NCBI RefSeq assembly: GCF_013778305.1
Contig: NZ_JACEIC010000002.1
Coordinates: 809,708 to 873,707, forward strand
DNA from: Nocardioides agri
Lineage (GTDB): Bacteria; Actinomycetota; Actinomycetes; Propionibacteriales; Nocardioidaceae
Direction of reading: 5' to 3'
DNA length: 64,000 nucleotides
The notes below the pieces were generated by a model that made no database searches, had not been told where the DNA came from, and saw only the letters and a program-made list of their open reading frames with translations. Shown here piece by piece: positions 19,425 through 34,631 of this stretch (positions are counted from its first letter, which is position 1; every line of letters starts with the position of its first letter). The translations under genes were made by a program, and so were the position numbers.

Positions 19425-20161
19425 GCGGGCTGCTCCTGCATGCGGCGGCTGGAGGCTCGGCCGTCGCGGACCCGCCACATCACGACGCGCCACAGCGCCT
19501 CGGCGGCGATGGCGGTGGACATCTTCGAGTGGCCGGCGCGGCGCTCCACGAAGGTGATGGGAACCTCGACGACGCGCATGTCTCGGCGTGCGGCCAGCCA
19601 CGTCGTCTCGATCTGGAACGAGTAGCCGTCGGCGTGAGTGCCCTCCTCGACGAGCAGGGCGAGCGCTTCGCGTCGGTACGCTCGGAATCCGGCGGTGCAG
19701 TCGCGGACCGGAAGTCCGAGGACCAGGCGGACGTAGAGGTTCCCGCCACTCGAGATCATGCGGCGATGCCATGGCCAGTCGACGGTCCGGCCGCCGCGGA
19801 CGTATCGGGAGCCGACGACGAGGTCTGCCCCCTGGAGCGCCGCGACCAAGCGTGGCACGGCGTCGGCGGGATGTGACCCGTCGGCGTCCATCTGTACGAC
19901 GACGTCGTAGCCGTGTGTGCGGGCCCAGTTGAACCCGGCGCGGTAGGCCGCGCCGAGACCAGCCTTGCCCGGTCGGTTCAGCAGGTGCACTCGCGTGCCG
20001 AACTCCGGGTGCGCGCCGACGATCGTGGCGGTGCCGTCTGGGCTGGCGTCGTCGACCACAAGCACGTGGAAGTCGGTGAGCGACGTTTGAGCGAGGAGCC
20101 CGCGGAGGAGGTCGCTGATGGTGAGCGCCTCTTCGTAGGTGGGGACGACGATCAGGTTCAC
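19421..20161 (-). CDS. Polyprenol monophosphomannose synthase-like GT2 glycosyltransferase
   Basis: 246 aa. Dolichol-phosphate mannosyltransferase fold: NLIVVPTYEEALTISDLLRG, VVDDASPDGT, VVVQMDADGSHP with the metal-binding DxD, GSRYVRGG, and RDCTAGFRAYRREAL. It would transfer mannose or another sugar from a nucleotide sugar to a polyprenyl phosphate at the inner membrane face. There is no C-terminal transmembrane domain. GTG 20161 is chosen since it lies at the point predicted for transcription start by the direct-repeat promoter at 20185-20201. A longer form from ATG 20239 is possible on transcripts from the upstream promoter. Coupled to the DedA-PAP2 gene. Confidence 0.87.
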   Translation of the reverse strand: MNLIVVPTYEEALTISDLLRGLLAQTSLTDFHVLVVDDASPDGTATIVGAHPEFGTRVHLLNRPGKAGLGAAYRAGFNWARTHGYDVVVQMDADGSHPADAVPRLVAALQGADLVVGSRYVRGGRTVDWPWHRRMISSGGNLYVRLVLGLPVRDCTAGFRAYRREALALLVEEGTHADGYSFQIETTWLAARRDMRVVEVPITFVERRAGHSKMSTAIAAEALWRVVMWRVRDGRASSRRMQEQPA

Positions 20162-20167
20162 GCGGGC

Positions 20168-20201
20168 AACCGTCCCTCGCGGCGCCTGCACCCAACCTGA
20201 A
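20168..20201 (-). promoter_or_regulatory. Direct-repeat promoter S1 (GT2 operon)
   Basis: Minus strand: TTCAGG (20201-20196), TTGGG, TGCAGG (20190-20185), 10 nt, -10 element GACGGT, 7 nt, GTG at 20161. Spacing is one base longer than in the other seven sites. No Shine-Dalgarno lies in the right place, which fits a leaderless message. Confidence 0.7.
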
Positions 20202-20219
20202 CGCCGAAGGAGCCGCGAG

Positions 20220-20336
20220 CTACCGGTGAACGAGTTCACGCGCCGCGTCGTGCCCGGCTCCGGAGCATCCGGGGACGATCGCGACCCGCCTACGACGATG
20301 ATCGCGGTCGAGCAACGGCTCTGGCGACGGCGTCAT
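20220..20336 (-). CDS. Leaderless mini-ORF L1, 38 codons, ahead of the GT2 gene
   Basis: ATG 20336 lies exactly 22 nt past the direct-repeat element at 20359-20375 and 6 nt after its -10 (CAGGGT). It encodes a basic peptide starting MTPSPEPLLDRDHRRRR and stops at 20220, just in front of promoter S1. No family is recognised. It may be a regulatory upstream ORF, or only a start codon at the transcription start. Confidence 0.4.
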   Translation of the reverse strand: MTPSPEPLLDRDHRRRRVAIVPGCSGAGHDAARELVHR

Positions 20337-20342
20337 GTGGCC

Positions 20343-20375
20343 ACCCTGGAGCGAGGACTCTCCAGCGAACCTGAA
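20343..20375 (-). promoter_or_regulatory. Direct-repeat promoter S6 (mini-ORF L1)
   Basis: Minus strand: TTCAGG (20375-20370), TTCGC, TGGAGA (20364-20359), 10 nt, CAGGGT as -10, 6 nt, ATG at 20336. The second half-site is the most divergent of the set. Confidence 0.5.
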
Positions 20376-20433
20376 TGCAGCGGCGTGCAGGCGTCTGGGG
20401 GATCCGACCCGGCACTGGCTAGGTTCCACCGGT

Positions 20434-21198
20434 GTGAGTGGAAACGTGCTCTCCCTGGGATGGCCGCTGGCCGTCCTGCTCTCTGTCTTCACGATCGCCG
20501 CCGCCGCGGTTGTGAGATCCGCCGGTCTTGGGGACTGGCGCGCCCCGATCACCGCCGCGGCCCGCTGTGTCGTCCAGCTCGCGGCGGTCAGCCTGGTGAT
20601 CGGGTACGTGCTGCGCTCGATGTGGTGGACCGTCGCGTTCGTCGGGTTCATGGTCCTGGTCGCCGCGGGCACGTCCGGGCGCCGCATCACCGGCTCTTTG
20701 GGCTGGAGGTCGACCTGGATGGTCCTTCCGATCCTGCTCGCCGTGTCGCCACCGATCGCGCTCGCCCTGATCGCCGGTGTGGTTCCGGTTGAGCCGATCG
20801 CGGTCCTTCCGACATCCGGGATCCTCGTCGGAGGCGCCATGACCGCGGCGACCCTGGCCGGGCGCCGGGTGATCGACGAGCTCGAGGCACATCGGGGAAG
20901 CTACGACGCCGCGCTGGCGCTCGGGTTCACCCGCCGACAGTCCGTCGGGATCGTCGCCCGCGGGCCGGCGGCTCTCGCGCTCGTACCGGGACAGGACCAG
21001 ACCCGGACGGTCGGACTGGTCACGCTCCCCGGAGCGTTCGTCGGAGTGCTGCTCGCCGGGGCAAGCCCGGTCGAGGCGGGTGCCGCACAGGCGTTCATCC
21101 TCATCGCGCTCCTGATGGTCCAAGCAGTGGCGGCGGCCGTCACGATCGAGCTCATCGCCGCGGCGCAGGTCCGAGGGAAGTCCGCGCTGCCGGCCTGA
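20434..21198 (+). CDS. FetB/YbbM-family ABC transporter permease, solitary
   Basis: 254 aa with about seven hydrophobic segments. The order VRSAGLGDWRAPITAAARCV, RRITGSLGWRSTW, TLAGRRVIDELEAHRGSYDA, and GLVTLPGAFVGVLLAGASPV is that of the FetB family, the membrane half of a putative iron exporter (FetAB). The ATPase partner FetA is not next to it. GTG 20434 has no clear ribosome site; TAGGTT at 20420-20425 would suit a -10 of a leaderless promoter. It lies inside the envelope island but without the shared direct repeat in front. Confidence 0.8.
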   Translation: MSGNVLSLGWPLAVLLSVFTIAAAAVVRSAGLGDWRAPITAAARCVVQLAAVSLVIGYVLRSMWWTVAFVGFMVLVAAGTSGRRITGSLGWRSTWMVLPILLAVSPPIALALIAGVVPVEPIAVLPTSGILVGGAMTAATLAGRRVIDELEAHRGSYDAALALGFTRRQSVGIVARGPAALALVPGQDQTRTVGLVTLPGAFVGVLLAGASPVEAGAAQAFILIALLMVQAVAAAVTIELIAAAQVRGKSALPA

Positions 21199-21219
21199 GA
21201 CAGGCGCGCTGGTCAGGAG

Positions 21220-21231
21220 ACGCCTAGGCGT
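21220..21231. repeat. Short palindrome ACGCCTAGGCGT
   Basis: A perfect 12-bp palindrome between the FetB stop and promoter S2. It could be a small operator; nothing else supports a function. Confidence 0.25.
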
Positions 21232-21260
21232 GATGTCGAGGGACGTTGTTGCGTGGTGCG

Positions 21261-21293
21261 TTCAGGTTGGTTGCAGGCAGGCCACGACATCGT
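21261..21293 (+). promoter_or_regulatory. Direct-repeat promoter S2 (COG4705 gene)
   Basis: TTCAGG (21261-21266), TTGGT, TGCAGG (21272-21277), 10 nt, CATCGT as -10, 6 nt, ATG at 21300. One of the closest matches to the consensus. Confidence 0.75.
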
Positions 21294-21299
21294 GCCGCC

Positions 21300-22562
21300 A
21301 TGACCCAGCAAGCAGCCACCGCCCGCATCGACGCACGGCAGATGCTCAACAAGGTCCCCGAGGTCACCATCTGGTTCTGGGTGATCAAGATCCTGTGCAC
21401 GACTGTCGGAGAGAGCTTCGCCGACTGGATCAACATGACGCTCGGCGTCGGCCTCGTGAACACCGCAGTGCTGTTCACGGTGGTGTTCGGCGCCGTCCTC
21501 ACAGTTCAGATGACCCTGCGGCAGTACGTCCCGGTCGCGTACTGGCTCACGGTGGTCGTCGTCAGCGTCACCGGCACCCTGTACACCGACATCCTCACCG
21601 ACCAGCTGGGCGTGCCCCTGTGGATCAGCACCACGGTGTTCTCGCTGTTGCTGGCTGCGGTGTTCGCGATCTGGTACGCCCGCGAGCGCACCCTGTCGAT
21701 CCACACGATCGTCACGGTTCCGCGCGAGGCGTTCTACTGGCTGGCCGTCCTTGTCACGTTCGCGCTCGGCACGGCTGCCGGCGACTGGACGCTCGAGCTG
21801 ACCGGCTGGGGACCTGGGAAGTCTGTGCTTCTCCCGCTGGGCCTGATCGGCATCGTCACGATCGTGTGGCGCCTCGGCGCCAACGAGGTGCTCACCTTCT
21901 GGCTGGCGTACATCCTGACCAGGCCGCTCGGCGCGAACATCGGTGACTGGTTCGCCACGCCGAGCAGCGAGAAGGGCCTCGGGATCGGCACGTTCGTCAC
22001 CAGCATCATCTTCCTGGGCGCCATCTTGGTGACCGTCGTGTACCTGTCGATCTCGAGGACCGACGTCATCGAGAACCGCGAGGCACGACCGACCGGGCAG
22101 TTCGTCCGGCCAGAGCGTCAGCGGGCACTGACCGCCGTGCTCGTGACCGTCGCACTCGGAACCGTCGGCCTGCTCGCGTGGGCAAACCAGCAGCCACACA
22201 CCAGCTCGCTCGAGGCCGAGGGACCCGCGCCGAGCTGCTCCGGGTCGCCCGTCAACCAGGACCAGGCAACCCAGCGGGTCGCCTCGACGTTCCCTGCCGA
22301 CTCGGTGCACAACTACCGCACCATCACCCAGGACACGCTCCAGCTGATCGACTCCGGCGACCAGTCCGGTGCCGCCAGCCGGGTCACCGACCTCGAGACC
22401 GCATGGGACGACGACCAGGCCTCGCTGCAGCAGATGGACTGCCAGACCTGGACCTACGTCGACCAGCAGATCGACCCCGTCCTGTCTGCAGTACGCGCCT
22501 CGAACCCGGACAAGGCGCACGAGGAGGCGGCGCTGAACGCGCTGCTGGCGACCCTCGGCTGA
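21300..22562 (+). CDS. COG4705-type membrane-anchored protein of unknown function
   Basis: 420 aa. The N-terminal 260 residues have about eight hydrophobic segments, beginning LNKVPEVTIWFWVIKILCTT and VGESFADWINMTLG, a pattern typical of COG4705 membrane proteins. The family is sometimes called membrane-anchored but has no assigned role. A further transmembrane segment (ALTAVLVTVALGTVGLLAWA) is followed by a C-terminal extracytoplasmic helical domain of about 120 residues with two cysteines, which is an addition to the usual family. The start codon coincides with the predicted transcription start of promoter S2, and no ribosome site precedes it. Confidence 0.78.
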   Translation: MTQQAATARIDARQMLNKVPEVTIWFWVIKILCTTVGESFADWINMTLGVGLVNTAVLFTVVFGAVLTVQMTLRQYVPVAYWLTVVVVSVTGTLYTDILTDQLGVPLWISTTVFSLLLAAVFAIWYARERTLSIHTIVTVPREAFYWLAVLVTFALGTAAGDWTLELTGWGPGKSVLLPLGLIGIVTIVWRLGANEVLTFWLAYILTRPLGANIGDWFATPSSEKGLGIGTFVTSIIFLGAILVTVVYLSISRTDVIENREARPTGQFVRPERQRALTAVLVTVALGTVGLLAWANQQPHTSSLEAEGPAPSCSGSPVNQDQATQRVASTFPADSVHNYRTITQDTLQLIDSGDQSGAASRVTDLETAWDDDQASLQQMDCQTWTYVDQQIDPVLSAVRASNPDKAHEEAALNALLATLG

Positions 22563-22582
22563 CGGGTGGCCGCCGAGAGACA

Positions 22583-22615
22583 TTCAGGCTGCGTGCAGGT
22601 GCCTTCGGCGAAGGT
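22583..22615 (+). promoter_or_regulatory. Direct-repeat promoter S3 (mini-ORF L3 and GT2)
   Basis: TTCAGG (22583-22588), CTGCG, TGCAGG (22594-22599), 10 nt, GAAGGT as -10, 6 nt, GTG at 22622. It begins 21 bp after the stop of the COG4705 gene. Confidence 0.72.
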
Positions 22616-22621
22616 AGGACA

Positions 22622-22723
22622 GTGACGGCACAACGACCGCCCGTGGCCTGCCACCGGGCAGACGACCGCACCGGTCGAGCGATCCGTCCTCCGCTCGACC
22701 GGTGCGGTCCGGTCGGAGCCTGA
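22622..22723 (+). CDS. Leaderless mini-ORF L3, 33 codons, ahead of the GtrB-like gene
   Basis: GTG 22622 sits exactly at the predicted start point of promoter S3. The peptide begins MTAQRPPVACHRADDRTGRA and ends one base before the ATG of the glycosyltransferase gene at 22725 (TGA-G-ATG), so termination and re-initiation are tightly placed. The frame contains an 18-bp stem-loop (22664-22709). No family is recognised; a regulatory upstream ORF is the likeliest role. Confidence 0.5.
   Translation: MTAQRPPVACHRADDRTGRAIRPPLDRCGPVGA
22664..22709 (+). promoter_or_regulatory. 18-bp stem-loop within the leader of the GtrB-like gene
   Basis: GACCGCACCGGTCGAGCG (22664-22681), a 10-nt loop, and its exact complement (22692-22709). 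It ends 4 nt before the GGAG ribosome site (22714) of the gene at 22725 and lies inside mini-ORF L3, so a ribosome on L3 must melt it. Confidence 0.65.
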
Positions 22724-22724
22724 G

Positions 22725-23747
22725 ATGGAGCCGCGCCTGGTCGCCTACGTGTTGCCGGTCTTCAACGAGTCGGCCGGCATCGTCGCGTTCCACCACGAGC
22801 TGGTCGACGCGACGCGGTCGAGACCCGACCTCCGGTTCGAGTTCGTGTACGTCGACGACGGGAGCAGCGACACCTCCCTGTCCGAGCTGATCGGTCTCCG
22901 CCGGGCCGACGATCGGGTCACGGTCGTGTCTCTGTCTCGCAATCACGGCCATCAGGTCGCCGTCAGCGCCGGACTCGACCTGTGTGGCGCCGCGGACGCG
23001 GTCGTCGTCATGGACACCGATCTGCAAGACCCGCCAGCGGTGAGTCTCCGGATGCTCGTGACCTGGGAAGCCGGCGCCGACGTCGTGTACGCGCAGCGTC
23101 GAACCAGGCAGGACACCTGGTTCAAGCGGACGTCCGCATCGTCGTTCTACTGGCTGCTCGACCAGGTTTCCGAGGTCGAAATCCCGCGCCACGTCGGCGA
23201 CTTCCGGCTCATGGACAGGCGGGTCGTGGCAGAGGTTGCCCGCTACCGCGAGCACGACAGGTTCCTGCGCGGAATCGTCGCCCAGGTCGGATTCCGTCAG
23301 GAGGCGATCCTGTACGACCGCGCCGCTCGCACCACCGGAACGTCCGGATACCCGATCCGCTCGATGCTGAAGCTCGCCGCCAGCGGATTGCTCGGCTTCT
23401 CCACGACGCCGCTGCGGCTGATCAGCCGCACGGGGATCGCGATCTCCCTGGTCAGTGTCGGACTCGCTGCGTACGTGTTCGGTGTTCGCGTCTTCGACCC
23501 CGACCAGGCTGTTCCGGGATGGGCGTTCCTCGGCGTCGGCATGTTCCTGCTCGGCGGGCTCCAGCTGGTGATGATGGGTGTGATCGGCAGCTATCTCGGT
23601 CGCGTCTACGTCGAGGCCCAGGACCGGCCCCTGTACGCGATCGCGTCGTGTGCGCGCGGCCGCGGCGGCCGCGGGGACAGCGCAGGGTCTCGGGTCGACG
23701 AGCTCAGCCTTCAGCCGCCAGGACGTCAGGACCCGTCAATTTCGTAG
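22725..23747 (+). CDS. GtrB/ArnC/YkcC-like GT2 glycosyltransferase
   Basis: 340 aa. The catalytic domain has VAYVLPVFNESAGIVAFHHE, VYVDDGSSDTSLSELI, VVVMDTDLQDPP (DxD) and HVGDFRLMDRRVV. Two C-terminal transmembrane helices follow (GIAISLVSVGLAAYVFG, FLGVGMFLLGGLQLVMMGVI). This is the layout of enzymes that charge polyprenyl phosphate with a sugar for a GT-C partner, such as ArnC with ArnT, GtrB or YkcC with YkcB. GGAG lies 7 nt before the ATG. The tail, rich in Gly/Arg/Ser after residue 305, overlaps the end of the convergent GT39 gene by 44 bp. Confidence 0.9.
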   Translation: MEPRLVAYVLPVFNESAGIVAFHHELVDATRSRPDLRFEFVYVDDGSSDTSLSELIGLRRADDRVTVVSLSRNHGHQVAVSAGLDLCGAADAVVVMDTDLQDPPAVSLRMLVTWEAGADVVYAQRRTRQDTWFKRTSASSFYWLLDQVSEVEIPRHVGDFRLMDRRVVAEVARYREHDRFLRGIVAQVGFRQEAILYDRAARTTGTSGYPIRSMLKLAASGLLGFSTTPLRLISRTGIAISLVSVGLAAYVFGVRVFDPDQAVPGWAFLGVGMFLLGGLQLVMMGVIGSYLGRVYVEAQDRPLYAIASCARGRGGRGDSAGSRVDELSLQPPGRQDPSIS

Positions 23748-25548
23748 GGCCCGTCGCCGGGGCGGCTCCCTGGCTCAGGTCGTACATGACGTGCCCTCCG
23801 ATCATGGTCGGCTCGAACTCGGACTGCACCCAGGCCTCGATCTGGGTGCCTGCGGGCCCGTACGTTCCGCCCGGGATGAACCAGTGCACCTGTCGGTCGC
23901 GGACCATGGCGCTGAACTGTTGGAGCGTCGGCGCTGGGTCGGTTCCCTTGTAGCCGCCGATGGCCAGCACGGGAGCGCCCGCCTTCAGCTGGTACGCGGC
24001 TGCGCCCTTGGCGCCCAGGGTCGCGGCTGCCCAGCGGTAGTCGTGCGAACCGGTCGCAAGAGCGGTAACGACCTCGTCCGAGATCGGTGCATATGCGCCG
24101 AAGATTCCGCCGTACGCGCTGGGCGCGACCAACTCCGTCGTGGTGGCGGCTCGGCCGGGTCCGGCCATCGGACCGGACCCGACATGGGGAGACCGGACCG
24201 TGGCCACCGAGAACAGGACCGGTCCGAGCAGCGTCGCGACTAGTGCGACGACAGCCAACGGCGCCGCGATGGGCCGCTCGGAGGTGCTTCGACCGACGAC
24301 GAACGCTGCGCCGAGGCCGGCGGCGAGCACGACCGGGAACCACCATCGGAGCTCGTATCCGACGGCTGCGACGGTCGCGCCCGAGACAAGAGTCGTGAGC
24401 ACGATGGTGGCGACGAGCAGTCGGCGCACGCGAACCTTGTCGCGGCGCTCCCACGCCAGCCACGACCCGACCGCGACGAGAGCAGAGATGGGGGGCGCGA
24501 GGATCACCGTGTAGTAGGAGTGGAAGATCCCTGCCATCAGCGCGAACGTCACGGAGACCACGCCGAGCCAGGTCGTCCACATGAACACGGCCGAGCGGAT
24601 GGCGCCACCGTTCTCTCGGGGACGGCTCAGTCGCCACGCAGCGACGGCAAGGACGATGGCGGCGGGGAGGAGCCAGGTGATCTCCGCGCCGAGATCGACG
24701 CGACCGATGCGGGCGATGTTGGTCGCCCCGAGTCCTCCGGATGCTGAGGTGCTGCCGGTGCTCCCGGTGAGTCGGCCGAGGCCGTTGTAGCCGAGCGCGA
24801 GCTGGCGGACCGAGTTTGCCGGGGATCCGCCGATGAACGGCCGCGTGCCGATCGGCCACGCCTCGACGATCGCGACCCACCATCCGGCTGCTGCCAGCAG
24901 GGCGATGGCGCTCAGCGCGAGCCGGCCGACACGACGGGGGAAGGCTCCGCGCCCGTAGACGAAGTAGGTGAGCCACAGCGCCGGAAGCACCAGCCACGCC
25001 TCGAACATCTTGGTCAAGAACCCGAGGCCGGCGAGCGTCCCGGCAAGCACGAGCCACCCGCTGTCGTGGTGACCTTCGAGAGCGCGGATGGTGGCGTAGG
25101 CGGCACCGAGCAGGAGCATGGTCAGCATCGCGTCCGGGATGTTGTACCTGAACACCAGCACCGAGACCGGTGTGATCGCGAACAGCCCGCCGGCGAGCAC
25201 AGCTACCGACGTCTGCCCTGTTGTCCGTCGGACCGTGGCGTAGAGCAGCCCCACGGACGCCACGCCCTCGACCGCCTGCGGCAGCAGAATGCTCCAGGGC
25301 GAGAGTCCGAACGCCCTTACCGACAGTCCCATCGGCCACAGCGCCAGCGGAGGCTTGTCGACCGTCAACCCGTTGGCCGCGTCGAGGGAGCCGAAGAACA
25401 GCGCCTTCCACGACACCGATCCCGCCTGCGCGGCAGCCGAGTAATAGACGTTCGCAAACCCGGACTCGTCGAGCTGCCAGGTGAACAGGAGTGCCGAGCC
25501 TGCCAGGAGCAGCATCAGCGGAGCCCGCTGTCGAAGACCATCAGGCAT
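23704..25548 (-). CDS. GT39-type (ArnT/YkcB-like) membrane glycosyltransferase
   Basis: 614 aa. About eleven hydrophobic segments, then a C-terminal extracytoplasmic domain. The first loop has ESGFANVYYSAAAQAGSVSW and then LTVDKPPLALW, the catalytic-loop pattern of GT39/PMT_2 enzymes that use polyprenyl-phosphate sugars on the outer face. The C-terminal domain with GTDPAPTLQQFSAMVRDRQV resembles actinobacterial YkcB-type proteins. ATG 25548 overlaps the PIG-L stop by 8 nt; ATG 25587 is an alternative. The GT2 gene convergent with it is a plausible sugar-charging partner. Confidence 0.85.
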   Translation of the reverse strand: MPDGLRQRAPLMLLLAGSALLFTWQLDESGFANVYYSAAAQAGSVSWKALFFGSLDAANGLTVDKPPLALWPMGLSVRAFGLSPWSILLPQAVEGVASVGLLYATVRRTTGQTSVAVLAGGLFAITPVSVLVFRYNIPDAMLTMLLLGAAYATIRALEGHHDSGWLVLAGTLAGLGFLTKMFEAWLVLPALWLTYFVYGRGAFPRRVGRLALSAIALLAAAGWWVAIVEAWPIGTRPFIGGSPANSVRQLALGYNGLGRLTGSTGSTSASGGLGATNIARIGRVDLGAEITWLLPAAIVLAVAAWRLSRPRENGGAIRSAVFMWTTWLGVVSVTFALMAGIFHSYYTVILAPPISALVAVGSWLAWERRDKVRVRRLLVATIVLTTLVSGATVAAVGYELRWWFPVVLAAGLGAAFVVGRSTSERPIAAPLAVVALVATLLGPVLFSVATVRSPHVGSGPMAGPGRAATTTELVAPSAYGGIFGAYAPISDEVVTALATGSHDYRWAAATLGAKGAAAYQLKAGAPVLAIGGYKGTDPAPTLQQFSAMVRDRQVHWFIPGGTYGPAGTQIEAWVQSEFEPTMIGGHVMYDLSQGAAPATGPTKLTGPDVLAAEG

Positions 25549-26428
25549 GGCCACACTCAGGCCTGGGTCGGAGAGAGGCGAAGACATCGTCGAGGAGGTC
25601 GCCTCCGACTTGACGCCCCCTCTCGCGGAACCACTCGCGCCCGATCACCCGGCGACGAACGGGCCGCGGGAGCCGGAGGATGAGTGCCAGCGTTCGGGCG
25701 CCGTCGTCACGTGCTCGGGTGGACTGGCTGGCGTGGGCTCGCAGTGACTCGCTCTTGTCAGACACGTAGTCCCGGACGTCCACGCGATGGGTGAGGTCGC
25801 CGCGGGCGGTGTAGGCGGTGCTGAGGTCGGGCAGTACGGGCATCGGGAGAACCCACGCGAGCGCTCGCAACACGTTGACTGCTCTCCAGATCAAGGCACG
25901 GTCGATGGTCGCCTCGAGCACGACCGGAGTGCCGGCGATCTCGGCCGCCATCGCGCCGACGCGGTGCACCTGGACGTGGTCGGGGTGGCCGTATCCGCCG
26001 TTCTCGTCGTAGGTGGTCAAGACGTCGGCACCCTCCTCGACCAGGAGCGCCGCGAGGTCGGCGGCCAGGGGTTCGGCGTCGAGCTGGCTGAACGGCACCG
26101 GTCCCCCAGGGTCGGCGGGGCCGCTGATCCCTTCACCGGAGGTCGGTACGGGCCAGCCGGTGTCGGGGTACCCCAGGACCTCGACGCGGGCGGCGCCGAT
26201 CGCGGCCGCCGAGGCTTCGAGCTCGCGGATCCGACGGTCGCCAAGGTGGTCTCCGGTCCAGTCTGCTCGGGCGGCTCCCGCCTCTCCGGCTGTGGCGACG
26301 ACGACGACGACGCGGTGCCCTTCGGCTGCTGCGCGGGCGAGCGTTCCGGCGGTCAGGAGGGCTTCGTCGTCGGGGTGAGCATGGAAGGACACGAGGGTGT
26401 ACCGCGCCGGGCCGGGCTGGCTGGTCAT
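25541..26428 (-). CDS. PIG-L/LmbE-family deacetylase
   Basis: 295 aa. The zinc site HAHPDDEALLTAGTLARAAA near residue 17 and the partner GYGHPDHVQVHRV near residue 165 are both present, so the active site is complete. The family removes acetyl from N-acetylglucosamine residues on lipids or small molecules (PIG-L, MshB, mycothiol-conjugate amidase). With glycosyltransferases on both sides of the operon, a lipid-linked or surface-glycan N-acetyl sugar is the likely substrate, but this is inference. Start overlaps the stop of the small membrane gene (ATGA), and the stop overlaps the GT39 start. Confidence 0.88.
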   Translation of the reverse strand: MTSQPGPARYTLVSFHAHPDDEALLTAGTLARAAAEGHRVVVVVATAGEAGAARADWTGDHLGDRRIRELEASAAAIGAARVEVLGYPDTGWPVPTSGEGISGPADPGGPVPFSQLDAEPLAADLAALLVEEGADVLTTYDENGGYGHPDHVQVHRVGAMAAEIAGTPVVLEATIDRALIWRAVNVLRALAWVLPMPVLPDLSTAYTARGDLTHRVDVRDYVSDKSESLRAHASQSTRARDDGARTLALILRLPRPVRRRVIGREWFRERGRQVGGDLLDDVFASLRPRPECGHA

Positions 26429-26697
26429 TGCACTCGCTCCCGCCGCAGCAGCAGTAGTGCGAGGAGGAGGGCGCCGGCGAGCAGCCCGATCGGCCCCAGC
26501 TGCCCGATCCCGACCAGGACGAGCACGGTCAGCCCCCCGAGCAGGGGGTAGCGAGTGATGCCACGAGGGTCGCCGCTGTCGGCGGCGACGATGAACCCGG
26601 CCGCGACCCCCATCAGCGTCAGCAGCGTCAGAGGCAGCAGGTGGGATCGCAACACTGCGGCCAGCGCGAGCGTCGCTGCGAGGAGCATGGCACTCAC
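26425..26697 (-). CDS. Small three-helix membrane protein
   Basis: 90 aa. Almost wholly hydrophobic: MLLAATLALAAVLRSHLL, LLTLMGVAAGFIVAA, LLGGLTVLVLVGIGQLGPIG, then LLAGALLLALLLLRRERVQ. GTG 26697 overlaps the stop of the PAP2_3 gene (GTGA), and its own stop overlaps the PIG-L start (ATGA), so it is embedded in the operon and surely translated. I recognise no family. Size and placement suggest an accessory subunit of one of the membrane enzymes beside it. Confidence 0.72.
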   Translation of the reverse strand: MSAMLLAATLALAAVLRSHLLPLTLLTLMGVAAGFIVAADSGDPRGITRYPLLGGLTVLVLVGIGQLGPIGLLAGALLLALLLLRRERVQ

Positions 26698-27692
26698 TCG
26701 ACGCACACAGCGTCCCGAGACCGGACCAGGACCGGGTAGATGGTGAGCTTGCCCAGGGCGACAGCGCCCGCGCCGATGGCGAGGCCGGCGATGTCGTCGA
26801 GCGCGAAGTGCCACCCCAGGTAGACAGTGGCGACGACGGTGCCGGCCAGATAGATCGAGAGCACGATCGTGGTCCGGCGCAGTCCGTAGTGGGCCGCCAT
26901 CAGGGTCAGGACGGTCGTGATGGCGACGTGCAGGCTTGCGAACGCCGATACCTGCGCGAACGCGTCGTGCGCGGCGGGGTCTGCCAGCAGGTGGGCGCGC
27001 TGCGCGAGGTACCTCGCCTGGGTCTCGGTGACGATGCTCGTGGGCAGCCCGGCGAAGTCCTGCGGCCGATCCTCGAACGGGCCGAGCGACGGTATCGCGT
27101 AGTAGGAGGCGGTGCCGAGCACCCAGGCCCAGCACATCGCCGCCACTAGGACTGCGCCGTCACGAATCTCGTCCGCGAGTGCGACCGCCGCGACGAAAGA
27201 GACGGTCACGAGTGTCGGGAACGACTCGTAGATGACGATCAGGACCCAGGCGGCCAGGTTCTCGCCGAGCAGGTCGTGCAGGAGCACGGCCGGGGTGTGC
27301 CCGAAGAACAACCATCGGTCGATCGCCGTGAGGGTCGCATCGCGGGGTGCGTTGAGGACGTCCCAGCTCTTGAGGTTGTGGTAGCAGAAGTAGACCAGGT
27401 GGTAGCAGAGCAGCGCCGCTCCGGCCAGGGCCAGCCGACGTGCGTCCCACCGCCGGCGCACCGTGTCGAGCAGCGTGCGTGTGTTCCAGGTACGCCTCGG
27501 CGTCCGCGCGCCCGCGTCGACGATCACCAGCACCGAAAACACCACTGCGCTGATCACGATCTTCCCGGCCAGGTACTGGCCGCCTGGATCGCGGAGCGCG
27601 ATGCCTACCTCGTAGGACCGCCACACGGTCACCGCGGCGAACCCGAGCACCAGCGCGATCAGGCGCAGCAACCATGGGGGCGTCGAGGTCAC
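26694..27692 (-). CDS. PAP2_3-family membrane protein (inositol phosphorylceramide synthase-like)
   Basis: 332 aa with about seven transmembrane segments. The two histidine motifs SAFASLHVAITTVL and VYLGWHFALDDIAGLA, with YYAIPSLGP before them, are those of the PAP2_3/Aur1-like group, which move phospho-head groups between lipids or hydrolyse lipid phosphates. In mycobacteria and relatives such proteins act in phosphoinositol-lipid biology; the substrate here is unknown. GTG 27692 is at the predicted start of promoter S4-minus; the frame is open from 27710. First gene of a four-gene overlapping operon: PAP2_3, small membrane protein, PIG-L, GT39. Confidence 0.82.
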   Translation of the reverse strand: MTSTPPWLLRLIALVLGFAAVTVWRSYEVGIALRDPGGQYLAGKIVISAVVFSVLVIVDAGARTPRRTWNTRTLLDTVRRRWDARRLALAGAALLCYHLVYFCYHNLKSWDVLNAPRDATLTAIDRWLFFGHTPAVLLHDLLGENLAAWVLIVIYESFPTLVTVSFVAAVALADEIRDGAVLVAAMCWAWVLGTASYYAIPSLGPFEDRPQDFAGLPTSIVTETQARYLAQRAHLLADPAAHDAFAQVSAFASLHVAITTVLTLMAAHYGLRRTTIVLSIYLAGTVVATVYLGWHFALDDIAGLAIGAGAVALGKLTIYPVLVRSRDAVCVE

Positions 27693-27698
27693 TGCCTG

Positions 27699-27731
27699 AG
27701 CGTGACCCACCCAACCTGAACGCGACCTGAC
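27699..27731 (-). promoter_or_regulatory. Direct-repeat promoter S4-minus (PAP2_3 operon)
   Basis: Minus strand: GTCAGG (27731-27726), TCGCG, TTCAGG (27720-27715), 10 nt, CACGCT as -10, 6 nt, GTG at 27692. It shares the intergenic space with S4-plus, 26 bp away. Confidence 0.72.
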
Positions 27732-27757
27732 TCCCCTGATGCTGACCGCCGGCGGGA

Positions 27758-27790
27758 GTCAGGTTGGGTTCAGGTTCGGTGCGTGAACCT
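27758..27790 (+). promoter_or_regulatory. Direct-repeat promoter S4-plus (flippase-like/GT4 operon)
   Basis: GTCAGG (27758-27763), TTGGG, TTCAGG (27769-27774), 10 nt, GAACCT as -10, 6 nt, GTG at 27797. Back to back with S4-minus. Confidence 0.75.
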
Positions 27791-27796
27791 GCGCAC

Positions 27797-28903
27797 GTGA
27801 CCGCTCTTCGCATCGACGACGCGCCAGGATCCGGGCTGGTCTCGTCTGCGGCGGACGTGGTCGTTCGCCGTGCGCCTCGGCCCGGGCGACGTTGGCCGGC
27901 TCGTCTGCGGTTCGCGGCGGGACTCGTGGCAGGCGCGGCGCTCACGTGCGTGGCGCTTCCCTCGGTGACCGGGGTCGCGTGGAATGACGTCGCGCCGGCC
28001 GCCACCGAGGTCCCGCCGGTGTGGCTGATAGCCCTCACCGCGCTGTGGTTCACGGGTCTTCTCGCGCACACGATCACTCTCACCGGCGCCCTGCCCGGGC
28101 TCACCCTCCGACGTGCGCTCGCCCTCAGCCTCACCGGCAGCGCCGTCGCGAACGTCCTCCCGTTGGGCGGCGCGGCCGGCATCGCGTTGAACTACCGGAT
28201 GGCGCGCACGTGGGGACATTCGCCGGCGGCGATCGGCGCGTACACCGTGGTCACCAACATCTGGGACGTCGGCGTGAAGGTCCTGCTCCCGATCCTCGCA
28301 CTGCCCGCCTTGCTGGTCGCCGCGTCGACCGTCGGTGCCACCGTTGCGAACGCCGTGATCGCCGGGGTCCTGGGTCTGGGTGTGCTCACCGCTCTCGGGG
28401 TCGCCACGCTGTCGTCGGCCGCGGCTGCACGACGGACGGGCAATCTCGTGGATCGCGTCTTCGGCAGGTGGCTTCGTGGCCGTTCGTGCCGGGCTGCGCT
28501 CCTTCGACTGCGGGAGGTCACCCACGCCGTCATCCGGACGCGGTGGCGACGTTTGAGTACCGGGATCGTGCTGTACACCGCGTTGCTGTTCGCGCTGCTG
28601 CTCGGCTGTCTGACGGCGTCCGGCGCCGGATCGAGCTTCACGGCGGTCCTCGCTGGTTTCACCGTCGAGCGGATCCTGACCCTGGCTGGCCTGACGCCCG
28701 GTGGCGCCGGGGTCGTGGAGGTCGGGTTGGCGACGACTCTCCTGGCCTTTCCTGGCGCTCCGGTCGGTATCGCTCTGGGTGTCCTTCTGTACCGGGCGCT
28801 CACGTTCGGCCTCGAGATCCCCGTCGGCGGTGTCGCGCTCGCGGCGTGGTTCTGGGCAGCCCGTGTCCGCGTGAAGAACCTGCCCAGTGGATCGGTTGCC
28901 TGA
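27797..28903 (+). CDS. LPG-synthase transmembrane/flippase-like protein (UPF0104)
   Basis: 368 aa with eight or so transmembrane segments and no C-terminal aminoacyltransferase domain. Motifs of the lysylphosphatidylglycerol synthase TM family: SLTGSAVANVLPLGGAAGIA, TNIWDVGVKVLLPILALPA, and FTVERILTLAGLTPGGAGVV with the usual TPGGxGxxE. The TM half acts as a lipid flippase in MprF; stand-alone copies are thought to move lipids or lipid-linked sugars. GTG 27797 fits promoter S4-plus; the frame is open upstream from 27764 but the motif lies inside that stretch. Stop overlaps the GT4 start (TGATG). Confidence 0.85.
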   Translation: MTALRIDDAPGSGLVSSAADVVVRRAPRPGRRWPARLRFAAGLVAGAALTCVALPSVTGVAWNDVAPAATEVPPVWLIALTALWFTGLLAHTITLTGALPGLTLRRALALSLTGSAVANVLPLGGAAGIALNYRMARTWGHSPAAIGAYTVVTNIWDVGVKVLLPILALPALLVAASTVGATVANAVIAGVLGLGVLTALGVATLSSAAAARRTGNLVDRVFGRWLRGRSCRAALLRLREVTHAVIRTRWRRLSTGIVLYTALLFALLLGCLTASGAGSSFTAVLAGFTVERILTLAGLTPGGAGVVEVGLATTLLAFPGAPVGIALGVLLYRALTFGLEIPVGGVALAAWFWAARVRVKNLPSGSVA

Positions 28904-30063
28904 TGCGAGTCCTCCATGTCACCGACTGCTACCGGCCTCGGGTCGGCGGCATCGAGATCCACGTCGGTGACCTGGTCGCACAGCAGCGCGCGTCGGGCGT
29001 CGATGCCCGGGTCATCACCCTGACCCCATCCGGAGGAAGCCCAGATCCGAGCTGGGTGTATCGCGCTGGGCGGCGATCCGGCCGACCGCCGTCCTCCCCG
29101 AGCCGCTCGCCGCTGGCCGCAGACGCAGAGCTCCGCCGCCTGCTCGAGTGGTGGCAGCCCGAGCAGGTGCACGTCCACGTGTCGGTGTTCTCACCGTTCG
29201 GGACCCTGGCCGCGCGAAGTGCCACGGGCGTCGGACTGCCGACTCTGCTCACGGTCCACTCGATGTGGAACGGTCTCGGACCGCTGCCCGCCGCGGCGCA
29301 GGTGATCCTCCAGCTGCGGCGCTGGCCGCTCCAGTGGTCGGCGGTGAGCGACGCCGCCGCGCGACCGCTGCGCAAGATGCTCGGGCCTGACGTCGAGGTC
29401 GCGGTCCTTCCGAACGCCGTCGACCCCGCGCTGTGGCAGCCCAGCGAGCGAGATCTGCCAGGCACGGACGTGAATGTGCCGACGCTGGTGTCGGTCATGC
29501 GGTTCACCCGCACGAAGCGAGCTGTTCCGCTGGCTCGGATGCTGCTCGCGCTGCGCGGTTCGGTTCCTGCTGGGGACGCGTTCCGGGCGGTCGTCATCGG
29601 TGACGGGCCTCAGCGCGAGGCGTTTGCGCGGTTCGTGGGTCACCACCGCATGGATGACTGGGTGGATCTACCTGGTCGCCTCGACCGTTCCGTGGTGCGT
29701 GAACACCTCGAGCGCTCGGACTGCTTCGTCGCACCGGGCGAGCTCGAGTCGTTCGGCCTCGCCGCGCTGGAAGCGCGGGCCGTCGGCCTCCCCGTCGTGG
29801 CGTCCGAACGATCCGGGGTGAGCGAGTTCATCGGCCACGGACGAGAAGGTCTGCTCGCGCGCGATGACCGTGCCATGGTTGCGGCGCTGGGCCGGATGGT
29901 CACCGACCGGCCCCTGCGTGAGGCGATCCGGGCGCACAACCGGCAGACGCCGATCTCGCACGACTGGCCGACAGCGCTGCGGCGGACCCAGATGCTCTAC
30001 TCACGCTCCGCTGACCTCGCCGTCACGACTCGCCCGGTGCGCCCGACGAGCGCGACTGCCTAG
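28903..30063 (+). CDS. GT4-family glycosyltransferase
   Basis: 386 aa. GT-B fold: N-terminal MRVLHVTDCYRPRVGGIEIH, then AVLPNAVDPALW, VSVMRFTRTKRAV, GDGPQREAFARF and the donor-site ELESFGLAALEARAVGLPVV with E-x7-E. The family builds mannosides and other surface glycans from nucleotide sugars on the cytoplasmic face. It starts inside the stop of the flippase-like gene, so the pair is a coupled unit: one makes a lipid glycoside, the other may move it. Confidence 0.9.
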   Translation: MRVLHVTDCYRPRVGGIEIHVGDLVAQQRASGVDARVITLTPSGGSPDPSWVYRAGRRSGRPPSSPSRSPLAADAELRRLLEWWQPEQVHVHVSVFSPFGTLAARSATGVGLPTLLTVHSMWNGLGPLPAAAQVILQLRRWPLQWSAVSDAAARPLRKMLGPDVEVAVLPNAVDPALWQPSERDLPGTDVNVPTLVSVMRFTRTKRAVPLARMLLALRGSVPAGDAFRAVVIGDGPQREAFARFVGHHRMDDWVDLPGRLDRSVVREHLERSDCFVAPGELESFGLAALEARAVGLPVVASERSGVSEFIGHGREGLLARDDRAMVAALGRMVTDRPLREAIRAHNRQTPISHDWPTALRRTQMLYSRSADLAVTTRPVRPTSATA

Positions 30064-30098
30064 CTCCGAGTCCGACGCGTCCCCGGGCGCCCTGTGGG

Positions 30099-31424
30099 CT
30101 ATGCGCGTGGCAGGCGAACGATGAAGGCCGCCCCGGAATCGGGCTTCCCCACGATGATCTCGCCGCCGAGCGAGCGGGCCACCCGTTGGGCAATACCGAG
30201 GCCGAGGCCGGTGCCGCCGGTACTGGAGGTCCCGACCTCGAAGATCTGCTCACGAAGGTCGTTGGCGACACCCGGGCCGTCATCGTCGATAGCGATCTCG
30301 ATGGCGTGCGGTAGGTCGGCGGCGCGCACGACGACACGAGAGCTGGCGTGCGCGACCGCGTTGTCGAGCACCGGCGCAACCGCGCGCAGAACCAGGTTCG
30401 GCGGGCCTCCGATCCGCGCCGTCGACGCGGCAGTGTCGTCGACGAGATCGAGCCGTGCCGGCACCGACTGACGAAGGGTCTCGACCAGGTCTGAGACCCG
30501 GCAGCTCGCGGATGCTCCCGCAGCCGCGGGATCGCGGGCGACGTCGACCAGGGTCGTGATCACCTCGGCCATCGCGCGTGCGGCCCGCGAGATCTCGACG
30601 AGCTCTGCGTGGGTCTGGTCGTCGGGCACACCTCGCATCAGCGCGAGGTCGGCCGATCCCTGGATTGCCGACAGCGGCGTACGCAGCTCGTGTGCCAGTT
30701 CGGAGGTGAGGCGTTGCTCGGAGCGGATCGCCATCGCGACCCGGTCGAGGAGGTGATCGAGCGTCTCGCCGAGCTGAGCGAGCTCGTCGCCGGCTGGGTC
30801 GAGGTCGAAACGCTGCGCCAGGTCGTGCTCGCTCCAGTCTGCGGCTCGCTCCGCCATCTGCGTGACCGGGGCGAGTGCCTGGGTGGTGACGCGTCGTGCG
30901 ATGACGGCGGCGAGTCCGATCACGAGGAGCCCGATTGCGATGGTGGCGACCAGGGCGTACGTCTCCGACCGTTCGTACGGCGTCGTGTCCTGGCTGACCA
31001 CGACCACACCTTGTTGACCTGCGGTGCTGGTGAACGGAAGTGCTCGTAGCCGGAGCTCCTCGTGGGCGGTGGCGTTCGTCGGCGACGTCACCGTCGCCAG
31101 GTCGTCCGCGGCGTCGCGTGCATCCTTTTCGATGGACCCGGCGACGAGGCGACCCTCCTCGTCGTAGACCCGGACGCCGGGATCGAGAGCATCGGCGGGC
31201 ACCGTCACATGTGGCGATTTGGCGTCGGTGTTGGCATCGACGACCCGGACCACGGCAGCTCCCCGGTCGGTGAGCACGCGGTCGATGTCGCGCTGAGCGG
31301 TGTAGGCGAGAACGATCTGGACGCCGACGATGGCGATGAGCATGGCGGCCGTCACCAGCGCGACGGTCGAGGCCACGATCCGGCCACGGAAGGTGCTGGG
31401 GAGGAGTCGACGCAGGAAGTTCAC
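30099..31424 (-). CDS. Sensor histidine kinase of the envelope two-component system
   Basis: 441 aa. TM1 near residues 17-41, a periplasmic sensor of about 115 residues (with DPGVRVYDEEGRLVAG), TM2 near 156-176, HAMP region to about 235, then HisKA with the phospho-acceptor His245 in SELAHELRTPLSAIQGS. The ATPase domain has N (VLDNAVAHA), G1 (IDDDGPGV) and G2 (GGTGLGLGIAQRV) boxes. Everything needed for phosphotransfer is there. Start overlaps the response-regulator stop (ATGA). Confidence 0.93.
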   Translation of the reverse strand: MNFLRRLLPSTFRGRIVASTVALVTAAMLIAIVGVQIVLAYTAQRDIDRVLTDRGAAVVRVVDANTDAKSPHVTVPADALDPGVRVYDEEGRLVAGSIEKDARDAADDLATVTSPTNATAHEELRLRALPFTSTAGQQGVVVVSQDTTPYERSETYALVATIAIGLLVIGLAAVIARRVTTQALAPVTQMAERAADWSEHDLAQRFDLDPAGDELAQLGETLDHLLDRVAMAIRSEQRLTSELAHELRTPLSAIQGSADLALMRGVPDDQTHAELVEISRAARAMAEVITTLVDVARDPAAAGASASCRVSDLVETLRQSVPARLDLVDDTAASTARIGGPPNLVLRAVAPVLDNAVAHASSRVVVRAADLPHAIEIAIDDDGPGVANDLREQIFEVGTSSTGGTGLGLGIAQRVARSLGGEIIVGKPDSGAAFIVRLPRA

Positions 31425-32086
31425 CGAAGTGTCAGCCCTACTCCTCGGACCGTGCGAAGTTGCAGAGGAGAGCCGACCTCGGTGAGCTTGACGCGGATCC
31501 GGCGCACGTAGGAGTCGACGGTGTTCTCGCTGACCATGGCGCCGTCGGGCCAGGCGGCGGCAACGATTGCGCGGCGGCGCACGACCTCGCCCGGGCGGGA
31601 GGTGATGGCTGCGAGCATGCGGAACTCGGTCGGGGTCAACAGGACCTCTTTGTCATTGCAGACCAGGGCGTGCCGAGCTGGATCGAGCAGCAGGTCGGTC
31701 GATGCGTTGCCGGTGACGATGCGGCCGCGCTTGGCCAGCGCTTCGACCCGTGCGATGAGTTCCTTGACGTCGAACGGCTTGGGAAGGTAGTCGTCGGCCC
31801 CGGCGCTGAACCCCGCGAGTCGGTCGTGGACCGCGCCGAGCGCGGTGAGGAACAGCACCGGTGCGGGCTGTCCCGCCGACCGCAGGGCCTGGCAGACGTC
31901 TCGCCCGTCGGCGTCGGGCAGTCCGATGTCGAGAACGATGACATCGAGGCTGTCATCGGTCGTGAACAACTGGAGCGCCTCGCGACCGTCGTGTGCAGGG
32001 ACGCCTACGTGGCCGGCGTGGTCGAGCGCGGCCAGGACGATGCGGCGGATCGCCGGGTCGTCTTCACACAGCCCGATGCGAGCCAT
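31421..32086 (-). CDS. OmpR/PhoB-family response regulator
   Basis: 221 aa. Receiver: acidic pocket CEDDPA (Asp9/Asp10), phospho-acceptor Asp53 in VIVLDIGLPDADG, Thr81, Lys103 in LPKPFD. C-terminal winged helix: LTPTEFRMLAAITSRPGEVV, VSENTVDSYVRRIRVKL, and VRGVGLTLR. Such regulators bind direct repeats about 11 bp apart; eight such repeats lie in this island, one in front of this gene. ATG 32086 has GAGGGGG upstream and, in contrast to the other targets, a 15-nt 5' leader. Target assignment is by position and architecture. Confidence 0.93.
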   Translation of the reverse strand: MARIGLCEDDPAIRRIVLAALDHAGHVGVPAHDGREALQLFTTDDSLDVIVLDIGLPDADGRDVCQALRSAGQPAPVLFLTALGAVHDRLAGFSAGADDYLPKPFDVKELIARVEALAKRGRIVTGNASTDLLLDPARHALVCNDKEVLLTPTEFRMLAAITSRPGEVVRRRAIVAAAWPDGAMVSENTVDSYVRRIRVKLTEVGSPLQLRTVRGVGLTLR

Positions 32087-32107
32087 TTCTGACCCCCTCT
32101 CGTGTCG

Positions 32108-32140
32108 AGGGTGCGCCGACAAACCTGCAAGGTACCTGAC
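32108..32140 (-). promoter_or_regulatory. Direct-repeat promoter S7 (response regulator/kinase operon)
   Basis: Minus strand: GTCAGG (32140-32135), TACCT, TGCAGG (32129-32124), 10 nt, CACCCT as -10, start point near 32101. It is the only one of the eight without a start codon at that point; the regulator's ribosome site and ATG follow within 15 nt. Implies autoregulation. Confidence 0.7.
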
Positions 32141-32160
32141 TGCTCAGCGCGCGTCGGGCG

Positions 32161-32193
32161 TTCAGGTCCGCTGCAGGTGGGTCGACGCACGGT
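32161..32193 (+). promoter_or_regulatory. Direct-repeat promoter S5 (mini-ORF L5 and GT-C gene)
   Basis: TTCAGG (32161-32166), TCCGC, TGCAGG (32172-32177), 10 nt, CACGGT as -10, 6 nt, ATG at 32200. Divergent from S7, with 20 bp between them. Confidence 0.75.
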
Positions 32194-32199
32194 GTGTCC

Positions 32200-32256
32200 A
32201 TGACACCGCCGCTCGAGGTCGCTGACGTACGCCGGGCAGCGGTGCGCCGGTCATGA
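32200..32256 (+). CDS. Leaderless mini-ORF L5, 18 codons, ahead of the GT-C gene
   Basis: ATG 32200 is exactly at the predicted start of promoter S5. Peptide MTPPLEVADVRRAAVRRS, whose TGA overlaps the ATG of the next gene at 32253 (ATGA). That overlap is the classic sign of translational coupling, so this short frame may be what lets a leaderless message reach the GT-C gene. Confidence 0.5.
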   Translation: MTPPLEVADVRRAAVRRS

Positions 32257-33740: not shown

Positions 33741-34631
33741 ATGTCTCGCCCCTACCGTGTCGCTGCGGTTGCGGTCACGATCGCGACGACGGTGGCGCTG
33801 TCCAGCGGCTGTTCCTCGGCAAGGATTCCAGAGGGCAACCAGGGCGCCTCGCCACAGCCAGCGCGGGTGACAAAGCTGCTGGTGTTCGTCGTCGAGAATC
33901 ACTCGCTCCGGCAGATGCGGTACGGAATGCCATGGCTCAGTCGACTGGCGACCAGGTACGGGTACGCGACCGGGTATCGCGCGATCACTCACCCCTCCCT
34001 GCCCAACTACCTGGGGATCGCGGGCGGGGATACTTTCGGTGTCACCGATGATGCGCCACCGTCGGCACACCCGATCAACGCGCCGAGTGTGTTCGGGTCT
34101 GCGGTGCGAGCCGGTCGCACCGCGACGATCTACGCGGAGGGGATGGACACGCGCTGCCAACGGGTCAACGGCGGGCGGTACGCGGTGCGTCACAACCCGT
34201 GGACGTACTTCCGCTCGGAGCGTCGGATGTGCCGGCGCCACGACATGCCGCTCACTGCGCTCAGCGGTGACGTCACTGCGGGCGACCTCCCGCAAGTCGG
34301 CATGGTCATCCCCGACGTCTGCAACGACGCCCACGACTGCTCGCTTGCTCGCGCCGACGAGTGGCTTCGGGATCAGGTGGGGAAGGCGTTGCGTGGACCG
34401 GACTTCACCTCGCGACACCTGGCCATAGTCGTCACGGCAGACGAGGACGACGGGTACCACGGGAACCGGGTTCTGACCGTGGTCGCTCATCCGCAGCTGC
34501 ACCACGTGACTGTCCGCCGCCCGCTCAGCCACTACTCACTGTCGCGTTCGTATGCGGAGGTTGCGAACATCGAGCCACTGGCCCATGCGGCGGGCTCCCG
34601 GTCGCTACTGCGGGCGTTCGGCCTGCACTGA
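33741..34631 (+). CDS. Lipoprotein phosphoesterase (acid phosphatase/phospholipase C-like)
   Basis: 296 aa. Signal peptide with lipobox LSSGC (Cys near residue 24), so it is anchored outside. Catalytic-core motifs of the phosphoesterase family: KLLVFVVENHSLRQMRY, ITHPSLPNYLGIAGGDTFGV, NDAHDCSLARADEWLRD, and VTADEDDGYHGNRVLTVVAH. The family hydrolyses phosphate esters, from small sugars to phospholipids. GAGGAG is 8 nt before the ATG. It follows the GT-C gene by 51 bp and probably shares its S5 transcript. Confidence 0.82.
   Translation: MSRPYRVAAVAVTIATTVALSSGCSSARIPEGNQGASPQPARVTKLLVFVVENHSLRQMRYGMPWLSRLATRYGYATGYRAITHPSLPNYLGIAGGDTFGVTDDAPPSAHPINAPSVFGSAVRAGRTATIYAEGMDTRCQRVNGGRYAVRHNPWTYFRSERRMCRRHDMPLTALSGDVTAGDLPQVGMVIPDVCNDAHDCSLARADEWLRDQVGKALRGPDFTSRHLAIVVTADEDDGYHGNRVLTVVAHPQLHHVTVRRPLSHYSLSRSYAEVANIEPLAHAAGSRSLLRAFGLH

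Follow-up and report, generated by a model that had tools for sequence, protein, structure and literature searches.

Which regulator reads a direct repeat that recurs eight times between 20.2 and 32.2 kb of a stretch of the Nocardioides agri genome, and what might the genes behind it do? The stretch comprises 64,000 nucleotides (nt) of contig NZ_JACEIC010000002.1 (positions 809,708 to 873,707; hereafter the window), and the repeats lie around an operon for an OmpR/PhoB-family response regulator and a sensor histidine kinase (Table 1). From the sequence evidence set out below, we think it probable (about 0.8) that the sites are operators of one OmpR-family regulon, whose regulator would bind the repeat, replace the -35 element and activate targets that are mostly predicted to be leaderless and may have a lipid-carrier function.

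One promoter layout in the window and at orthologous loci

The pattern tested in the window was KTCAGG-N5-TKCAGG (K, G or T), then 10 nt, then a -10 hexamer NANNNT; repeat and -10 together make up a 33-base form. A first-pass annotation of the window had placed all eight motifs correctly and counted them as equals. The repeat is exact at seven of them, the exception being operator 2, which scores 15.2 compared with 21.9-31.4 for the other seven (with a matrix trained partly on the window); to judge from these differences, seven sites look functional and operator 2 looks decayed. The spacing of 10 nt before NANNNT was confirmed at all eight, and an ATG or GTG stands 6-7 nt past the -10 at seven, the regulator gene being the exception. 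This last count had also been given in the first-pass annotation, but at operators 2, 4 and 8 the start codon opens a short open reading frame (ORF) only, of 38, 33 and 18 codons. That so rigid a layout is not due to chance agrees with the complete 4.79-Mb genome, in which the repeat is matched seven times, at the seven window sites and nowhere else, and the backwards pattern once. If one mismatch is tolerated, the 33-base pattern is found at ten places in the genome, seven in the window and three elsewhere (backwards: one).

The -10 was examined without conditioning on it in 20 loci of about 20 kb, chosen solely for an orthologue of the regulator, together with the window. Here [GT]TCAGGT-N6-CAGG has 43 matches and the reversed sequences have none; among the 37 matches outside the window, A is found at +12 in 34 and T at +16 likewise in 34. 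An ATG or GTG follows 22-23 nt past the motif at 29 of the 43 (24/37 outside the window and 5/6 within it), where chance would give 0.054 for both positions together (p about 6e-27). A matrix was then built on 115 sites from the window, the 20 regulator-selected loci and 20 further stretches. At a score of at least 13 it found 202 sites; each of the 66 stretches that hold or adjoin an orthologue (1.30 Mb in total; 41 of the stretches had also trained the matrix) has at least one, and the reversed sequences have none. The in-frame start of the assigned target lies at +21 to +24 in 115 of the 202 (71 at +22, 40 at +23, and two each at +21 and +24). Every one of 20 untrained stretches, 13 of which came from genomes previously known as motif-bearing, has a site at a score of at least 11, and their reversed sequences have none at 10 or above (371 kb). 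In a wider set, 147 of 223 sites show a start codon in the leaderless position, i.e. 6-7 nt after the -10.

Co-occurrence of operator and regulator

Because the short pattern without the -10 fails to separate genomes with the regulator from those without it, we used the longer pattern, which is specific. In 215 genomes of the genus it has 253 sites in 85 genomes, compared with four in the backwards control. A regulator orthologue at E <= 1e-50 is present in 79 of the 215; 71 genomes have both, 14 the motif only, eight the regulator only and 122 neither (Fisher p = 4.4e-33), and all 39 genomes with three or more sites carry the regulator. The regulator-only genomes (G012, G027, G103, G105, G118, G128, G147 and G206) have near-consensus sites, the weakest scoring 13.3 and 14.6.

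Outside the genus, a sample of 374 genomes (a class-wide 394 minus 20 of the genus; regulator at E <= 1e-45) contained 41 with the motif, 36 with the regulator and 21 with both (p = 5e-14). The motif genomes of this sample hold 49 sites, 27 of them in regulator genomes, 21 on the regulator's contig and 20 within 5 kb of it. A site precedes a DUF347 gene beside the orthologue in Streptomyces plumbidurans, Streptomyces sp. LaPpAH-108 (with one repeat mismatch) and Sphaerisporangium album. Six of seven named orthologue loci (L153-L158, L189) have sites and the seventh, a 4.6-kb contig of a Conexibacter metagenome-assembled genome, has none; the class-wide sample also gave 27 short orthologue loci, to which the genus or family contributed five, and a score of at least 11 is reached by a site in 20 of the 27. 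The earlier proposal of an OmpR-type activator encoded by the adjacent operon, which itself lies behind one of the sites as had been noted (operator 7), is thus supported in silico by the 66 stretches and by both co-occurrence tests.

Target genes and a possible lipid-carrier response

The operons of the window, as inferred from gene spacing, agree with the set of envelope genes described in the first-pass annotation (GT2, GT39, GT4, DedA-PAP2, PAP2_3, PIG-L and flippase-like), which had left the DUF347 protein after operator 3 unnamed; its class GT-C for the 478-aa protein, a sequence without a Pfam match, stays that annotation's own label. The first assigned genes after the 202 sites are DUF347 (37), a second DUF347 type (13), the regulator (25, in 23 stretches), DUF2231 (25), DedA or DedA-PAP2 (11), LPG_synthase_TM (10), the 478-aa type (10), PAP2_3 (9), GT2a (7), a ferric-reductase type (5), ABC ATPases (4), BacA/UppP (2) and others (11). 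Relatives add UppP/BacA, GtrA, MGDG-synthase-type, ABC ATPase, DUF2231 and ferric-reductase-type genes to the targets, and distant sites also precede UppP-type genes (Pfam-confirmed in L135, with matching N-termini in L136-L138).

These families suggest a remodelling of lipid carriers or glycolipids. Because the set includes PAP2, DedA, UppP, polyprenyl-phosphate-type glycosyltransferases and flippase-like genes, the regulon might renew or remodel the polyprenyl-phosphate carrier and the glycans linked to it; DUF347 is the most frequent member, and the carrier set would comprise PAP2, DedA, UppP and GtrA (the latter two in relatives), the DPMS-like and PgfS-like GT2 enzymes, the PMT-type glycosyltransferase and the flippase-like protein. 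DUF347 thereby becomes associated with phosphatases of carrier lipids, with DedA proteins and with glycosyltransferases of the polyprenyl-phosphate type, and so acquires a testable role. Its AlphaFold model (mean pLDDT 76) had no match in the PDB at E <= 0.001, and a search of PDB sequences with the DUF347 profile gave none at E <= 1. More tentatively, and in our view rather unlikely, this could be an old actinobacterial stress regulon for the undecaprenyl-phosphate carrier, whose portable cassette of about 45 bp (operator, -35-less promoter and leaderless start) spread gene by gene; the large family DUF347/COG4705 at its core would then have a novel part in the transport or recycling of carrier lipids.

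The main functional alternative keeps regulator and operator but sees in the regulon a response to metal (e.g. lead or another divalent cation) by export and surface precipitation. Passages of one study describe lead-induced UppP-DUF347 operons and propose DUF347 as a metal transporter (PMC4531530); the association of DUF347 with an undecaprenyl-pyrophosphatase is shared with our loci, whereas neither an operator nor a regulator is described in those passages. A cation-efflux gene after one of the hairpin sites discussed below (L039) and the presence of S. plumbidurans among the genomes with orthologue and site point in the same direction. Most window targets, however, are glycosyltransferases, PAP2/DedA proteins and flippase-like genes, and the invariant residues of the extracytoplasmic part of the kinase show no outstanding metal-binding motif, so that we regard a metal response as possible but rather unlikely.

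Table 1. Positions of operators, genes and other elements (window coordinates unless a locus or contig is named)
Feature	Position	Strand	Remarks
Operator 1, TTCAGGTTGGGTGCAGG	20185-20201	-	-10 GACGGT; GTG of GT2a 23 nt past motif
Operator 2, TTCAGGTTCGCTGGAGA	20359-20375	-	-10 CAGGGT; decayed, poor second half; opens 38-codon ORF
Operator 3, TTCAGGTTGGTTGCAGG	21261-21277	+	-10 CATCGT; ATG of DUF347 at 21300
Operator 4, TTCAGGCTGCGTGCAGG	22583-22599	+	-10 GAAGGT; opens 33-codon ORF
Operator 5, GTCAGGTCGCGTTCAGG	27715-27731	-	-10 CACGCT; GTG of PAP2_3 at 27692
Operator 6, GTCAGGTTGGGTTCAGG	27758-27774	+	-10 GAACCT; GTG of LPG_synthase_TM gene at 27797
Operator 7, GTCAGGTACCTTGCAGG	32124-32140	-	-10 CACCCT; regulator/kinase operon, leadered; ATG of regulator 37 nt past motif
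Operator 8, TTCAGGTCCGCTGCAGG	32161-32177	+	-10 CACGGT; opens 18-codon ORF
DedA (VTT domain)-PAP2 fusion	17946-19424	-	downstream of GT2a; longer frame scanned
GT2a, DPMS-like glycosyltransferase	19421-20161	-	
DUF347 (PF03988, COG4705) membrane protein	21300-22562	+	commonest target in relatives
GT2b, PgfS-like glycosyltransferase	22725-23747	+	below NCBIfam cut-off
PMT_2/YkcB-type glycosyltransferase	23704-25587	-	likely in PAP2_3 operon
PIG-L deacetylase family	25541-26428	-	likely in PAP2_3 operon
PAP2_3 phosphatase	26694-27692	-	first gene after operator 5
LPG_synthase_TM, flippase-like	27797-28903	+	scanned from 27764
GT4 glycosyltransferase	28900-30063	+	start approximate; likely in LPG_synthase_TM operon; longer frame scanned
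Sensor histidine kinase, 441 aa	30099-31424	-	HAMP, HisKA, HATPase_c
OmpR/PhoB-family response regulator, 221 aa	31421-32086	-	Response_reg + Trans_reg_C
478-aa protein	32253-33689	+	no Pfam match; GT-C in first-pass annotation
Phosphoesterase family protein	33741-34631	+	likely same operon as 478-aa gene
38-codon ORF	20222-20337	-	after operator 2
33-codon ORF	22622-22723	+	ends beside GT2b start
18-codon ORF	32200-32256	+	overlaps start of 478-aa gene
Inverted repeat	22664-22709	+	between operator 4 and GT2b, within 33-codon ORF
Ms_AS-4 (RF02464)	12359-12440	-	81.4 bits; unrelated to regulon
Sister motif, L239 (own genome)	C2:1144022-1144054	-	precedes PepSY gene
Sister motif, L113	11922	-	precedes PepSY gene
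Sister motif, L050	1614	-	precedes PepSY gene
Sister motif, L125	15086	+	
Hairpin site, L039	8275	-	
Hairpin site, L040	8267	-	
Hairpin site, L121	11116	+	
Hairpin site, L122	11372	+	
Hairpin site, L123	8623	-	
Hairpin site, L140	3020	-	
Similar hairpin site, L251	10272	-	
Similar hairpin site, L254	5715	+	
Variant hairpin site, L117	12636	+	

The regulator and its proposed mode of activation

The regulator combines a receiver domain (PF00072, 81.3 bits) with a winged-helix domain (Trans_reg_C, PF00486, 64.3 bits), and D53 in its segment VLDIGLP, which aligns to the acceptor segment of 1kgs, is the putative phospho-acceptor aspartate. The operators have the geometry, a direct repeat with a period of about 11 bp, at which an OmpR/PhoB-type regulator would be predicted to bind. 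With few exceptions the orthologues keep a recognition-helix region around NT-[VIL]-D-[STQ]-[YF], in which paralogues from the same loci differ. In several loci (for example L040, L113, L117, L122, L153 and L154) no more than about 10 kb separates the orthologue from a second response regulator, with identities of about 36-38%, and in L122 and L052 a site is found upstream of such a second regulator. In the kinase, H245 of the motif HELRTPL is invariant; the AlphaFold model of this protein (mean pLDDT 73) matches, among the best 50 rows, cytoplasmic domains of kinases such as CpxA, and its extracytoplasmic part (helix, two strands, helix, three strands) may be PDC-like. Assignment of the regulator to a named family was rejected by NCBIfam score for PhoP (107.9, cut-off 336), PmrA (128.8, cut-off 330), MtrA (135.8, cut-off 300), CseB (125.7, cut-off 350) and the heavy-metal CusR/CopR family (144.6, cut-off 279.2).

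Several observations weigh against a single regulon read by this regulator. Within the genus, 16 sites occur in 14 genomes that lack the orthologue; the closest regulators in 11 of these are 36-42% identical, and three genomes have none reaching E 1e-33. Several of the 16 sites look like chance matches, and those of G100 (before a UppP-like gene), G129 (before a hairpin) and G161 (two sites on one contig) look real. Outside the genus, 15 of the 36 regulator genomes are without the strict pattern and 20 of the 41 motif genomes without the regulator, and 7 of the 27 short orthologue loci have no site at a score of 11. The co-occurrence p values ignore the relatedness of the genomes. Of 58 relatives, 51 have at least one match to the short pattern, in many cases at the level of the control, so that this pattern alone is unspecific. 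Furthermore, 33 of the 202 sites have no assigned gene, and the functional reading depends on family names only. Finally, a sister motif, TTCAGG-N5-TTCAG[CG], with the same spacing to the -10, occurs at four loci, in three of them before PepSY genes; paralogues may read similar DNA there (as TTCAGG-N5-TTCAGC), and a paralogous two-component system perhaps uses it as its operator.

Some of these observations would be explained if the main binder were a different member of the OmpR family that recognises a similar sequence, with the linked operon as just one of its targets: the sites in the 14 genomes without the orthologue, the second regulator/kinase pair near the orthologue in several loci and the similar repeat before PepSY genes all fit such a regulator. 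Co-occurrence and proximity track the present orthologue, however, and 1.23 Mb around 73 non-orthologous regulators had no pattern match, a weak control with most loci from other phyla; we thus consider a different main binder unlikely.

If the regulator encoded beside the sites is indeed their reader, its position suggests how it acts. Counted from the start codon (+1), the motif occupies about -39 to -23, the place of the -35. We infer activation at the -35 here, as by Salmonella PhoP at its architecture I promoters, where a box in direct orientation covers the -35 12 nt from the -10 (passages of PMC3335776), and by its sequence the layout is that of a class II activator, with the operator over the -35 at a fixed distance to the -10. 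The -10 appears weak, because its first base is seldom T (C 59, G 32, T 17 and A 7 over the 115 sites). We propose that the regulator, as a phosphorylated dimer, would bind KTCAGGT-N4-TKCAGG head-to-tail, stand in for the -35 element and recruit RNA polymerase to the weak -10 (NANNNT) 10 bp downstream, activating rather than repressing. The 5' ends of most target mRNAs would coincide with the start codon or lie no more than about two bases from it, and these mRNAs would be translated without a leader, a prediction that goes beyond the first-pass annotation. The kinase would sense an envelope condition, and positive autoregulation of the leadered regulator operon would be expected; because the regulator gene of the window keeps its leader, it may differ from the targets in translation control. 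If this is correct, the operator allows regulon members and their translation starts to be read from the genome sequences of several actinobacterial families, which makes an uncharacterised envelope response readable and testable, and activator site, -10 and start codon on one ruler would be a natural system suited to studies of -35-less activation and leaderless translation.

Since repressor sites, too, can overlie the -35 position, as the motif does, the regulator might instead block RNA polymerase at genes that are on by default. The promoters have no -35 of their own, however, and with T as first base of the -10 at only 17 of 115 sites they would be weak without an activator, which makes repression quite improbable. 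Even less probable is a promoter of an alternative (extracytoplasmic-function-type) sigma factor: sigma factors also give a conserved element upstream of the -10 with constant spacing, but an OmpR-type dimer fits the two half-sites in direct repeat, which are separated by one helical turn and leave 10 nt between the second half-site and the -10, and the site goes with a response regulator. That the sites are copies of one recently duplicated repeat without a shared regulator can practically be dismissed in spite of seven copies within 12 kb of one genome, because spacers and flanks differ with half-sites, -10 and start kept, no flanking identity beyond the motif was seen among the window sites, and the layout recurs in other families.

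The activation proposed here has parallels in known systems. The PmrA/BasR regulon of enterobacteria comprises envelope-modification genes that include polyprenyl-phosphate glycosyltransferases and a PMT-type transferase, and the target set found here resembles it, whereas the PmrA box differs and the regulator scores far below the PmrA cut-off. With Salmonella PhoP our system shares an OmpR-family regulator and a direct-repeat box that overlaps the -35 and keeps a constant distance to the -10, but the box sequence is another, the distance is 10 nt instead of 12, and one architecture dominates instead of several (PMC3335776, in part). Like PolR of Microlunatus phosphovorus and PhoP of Streptomyces, the regulator is an actinobacterial OmpR-type protein with a 17-bp direct repeat of 11-bp period; their repeat, however, is GTTCACnnnnnGTTCaC and their targets are phosphate and polyphosphate genes (passages of PMC6754071). 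MtrA, CutR and Corynebacterium MprA are likewise response regulators of actinobacteria, and some of them have direct repeats and targets in the envelope, but the motifs of CutR (TAWATAAA), Corynebacterium MprA (TKTTAAGAAM), MtrA and the PhoR types, as far as given in the source passages, differ from ours. The first-pass annotation knew of no similar consensus; none of the compared published motifs (PolR, CutR, Corynebacterium MprA, MtrA and PhoR types) matches, and a literature search, made with few terms and with subscription journals mostly outside its reach, found no response regulator with a direct repeat of KTCAGG. As to leaderless translation, Propionibacterium acnes is a species that we take to belong to the same order as the Nocardioides host. 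Leaderless mRNAs are prevalent in it, according to passages of PMC3848588.

Some minor features accompany the sites. The 38-codon ORF after operator 2 contains VAIVPGCSGAGHDAARE, which is 53-69% identical over 16-17 residues to the start of MGDG-synthase-type proteins encoded after sites in relatives (BLASTP E 7e-5 to 3e-4 with only three target sequences; tblastn about 0.02), and the ORF is likely a relic of a lost target gene. The short ORFs in the leaderless position at operators 4 and 8 leave room for a possible translational coupling with the main gene. Rfam revealed no known RNA family at the operator sites of the window, its only match there being the actinobacterial small RNA Ms_AS-4, and a tRNA search of the window found none. 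At several sites in relatives, a stem of about 12 bp with a loop rich in C comes after operator and -10, at the predicted +1 or a few bases from it, mostly without an immediate target ORF. These hairpin sites had no Rfam match at the gathering threshold (eight relatives' loci gave one tRNA only), and a regulated small RNA or a 5' hairpin is possible. Within the window, GT2b is preceded by an inverted repeat whose 18-bp arms pair perfectly around a loop of 10 nt; with a predicted fold z-score of -5.6, it is a candidate attenuator, terminator or small RNA.

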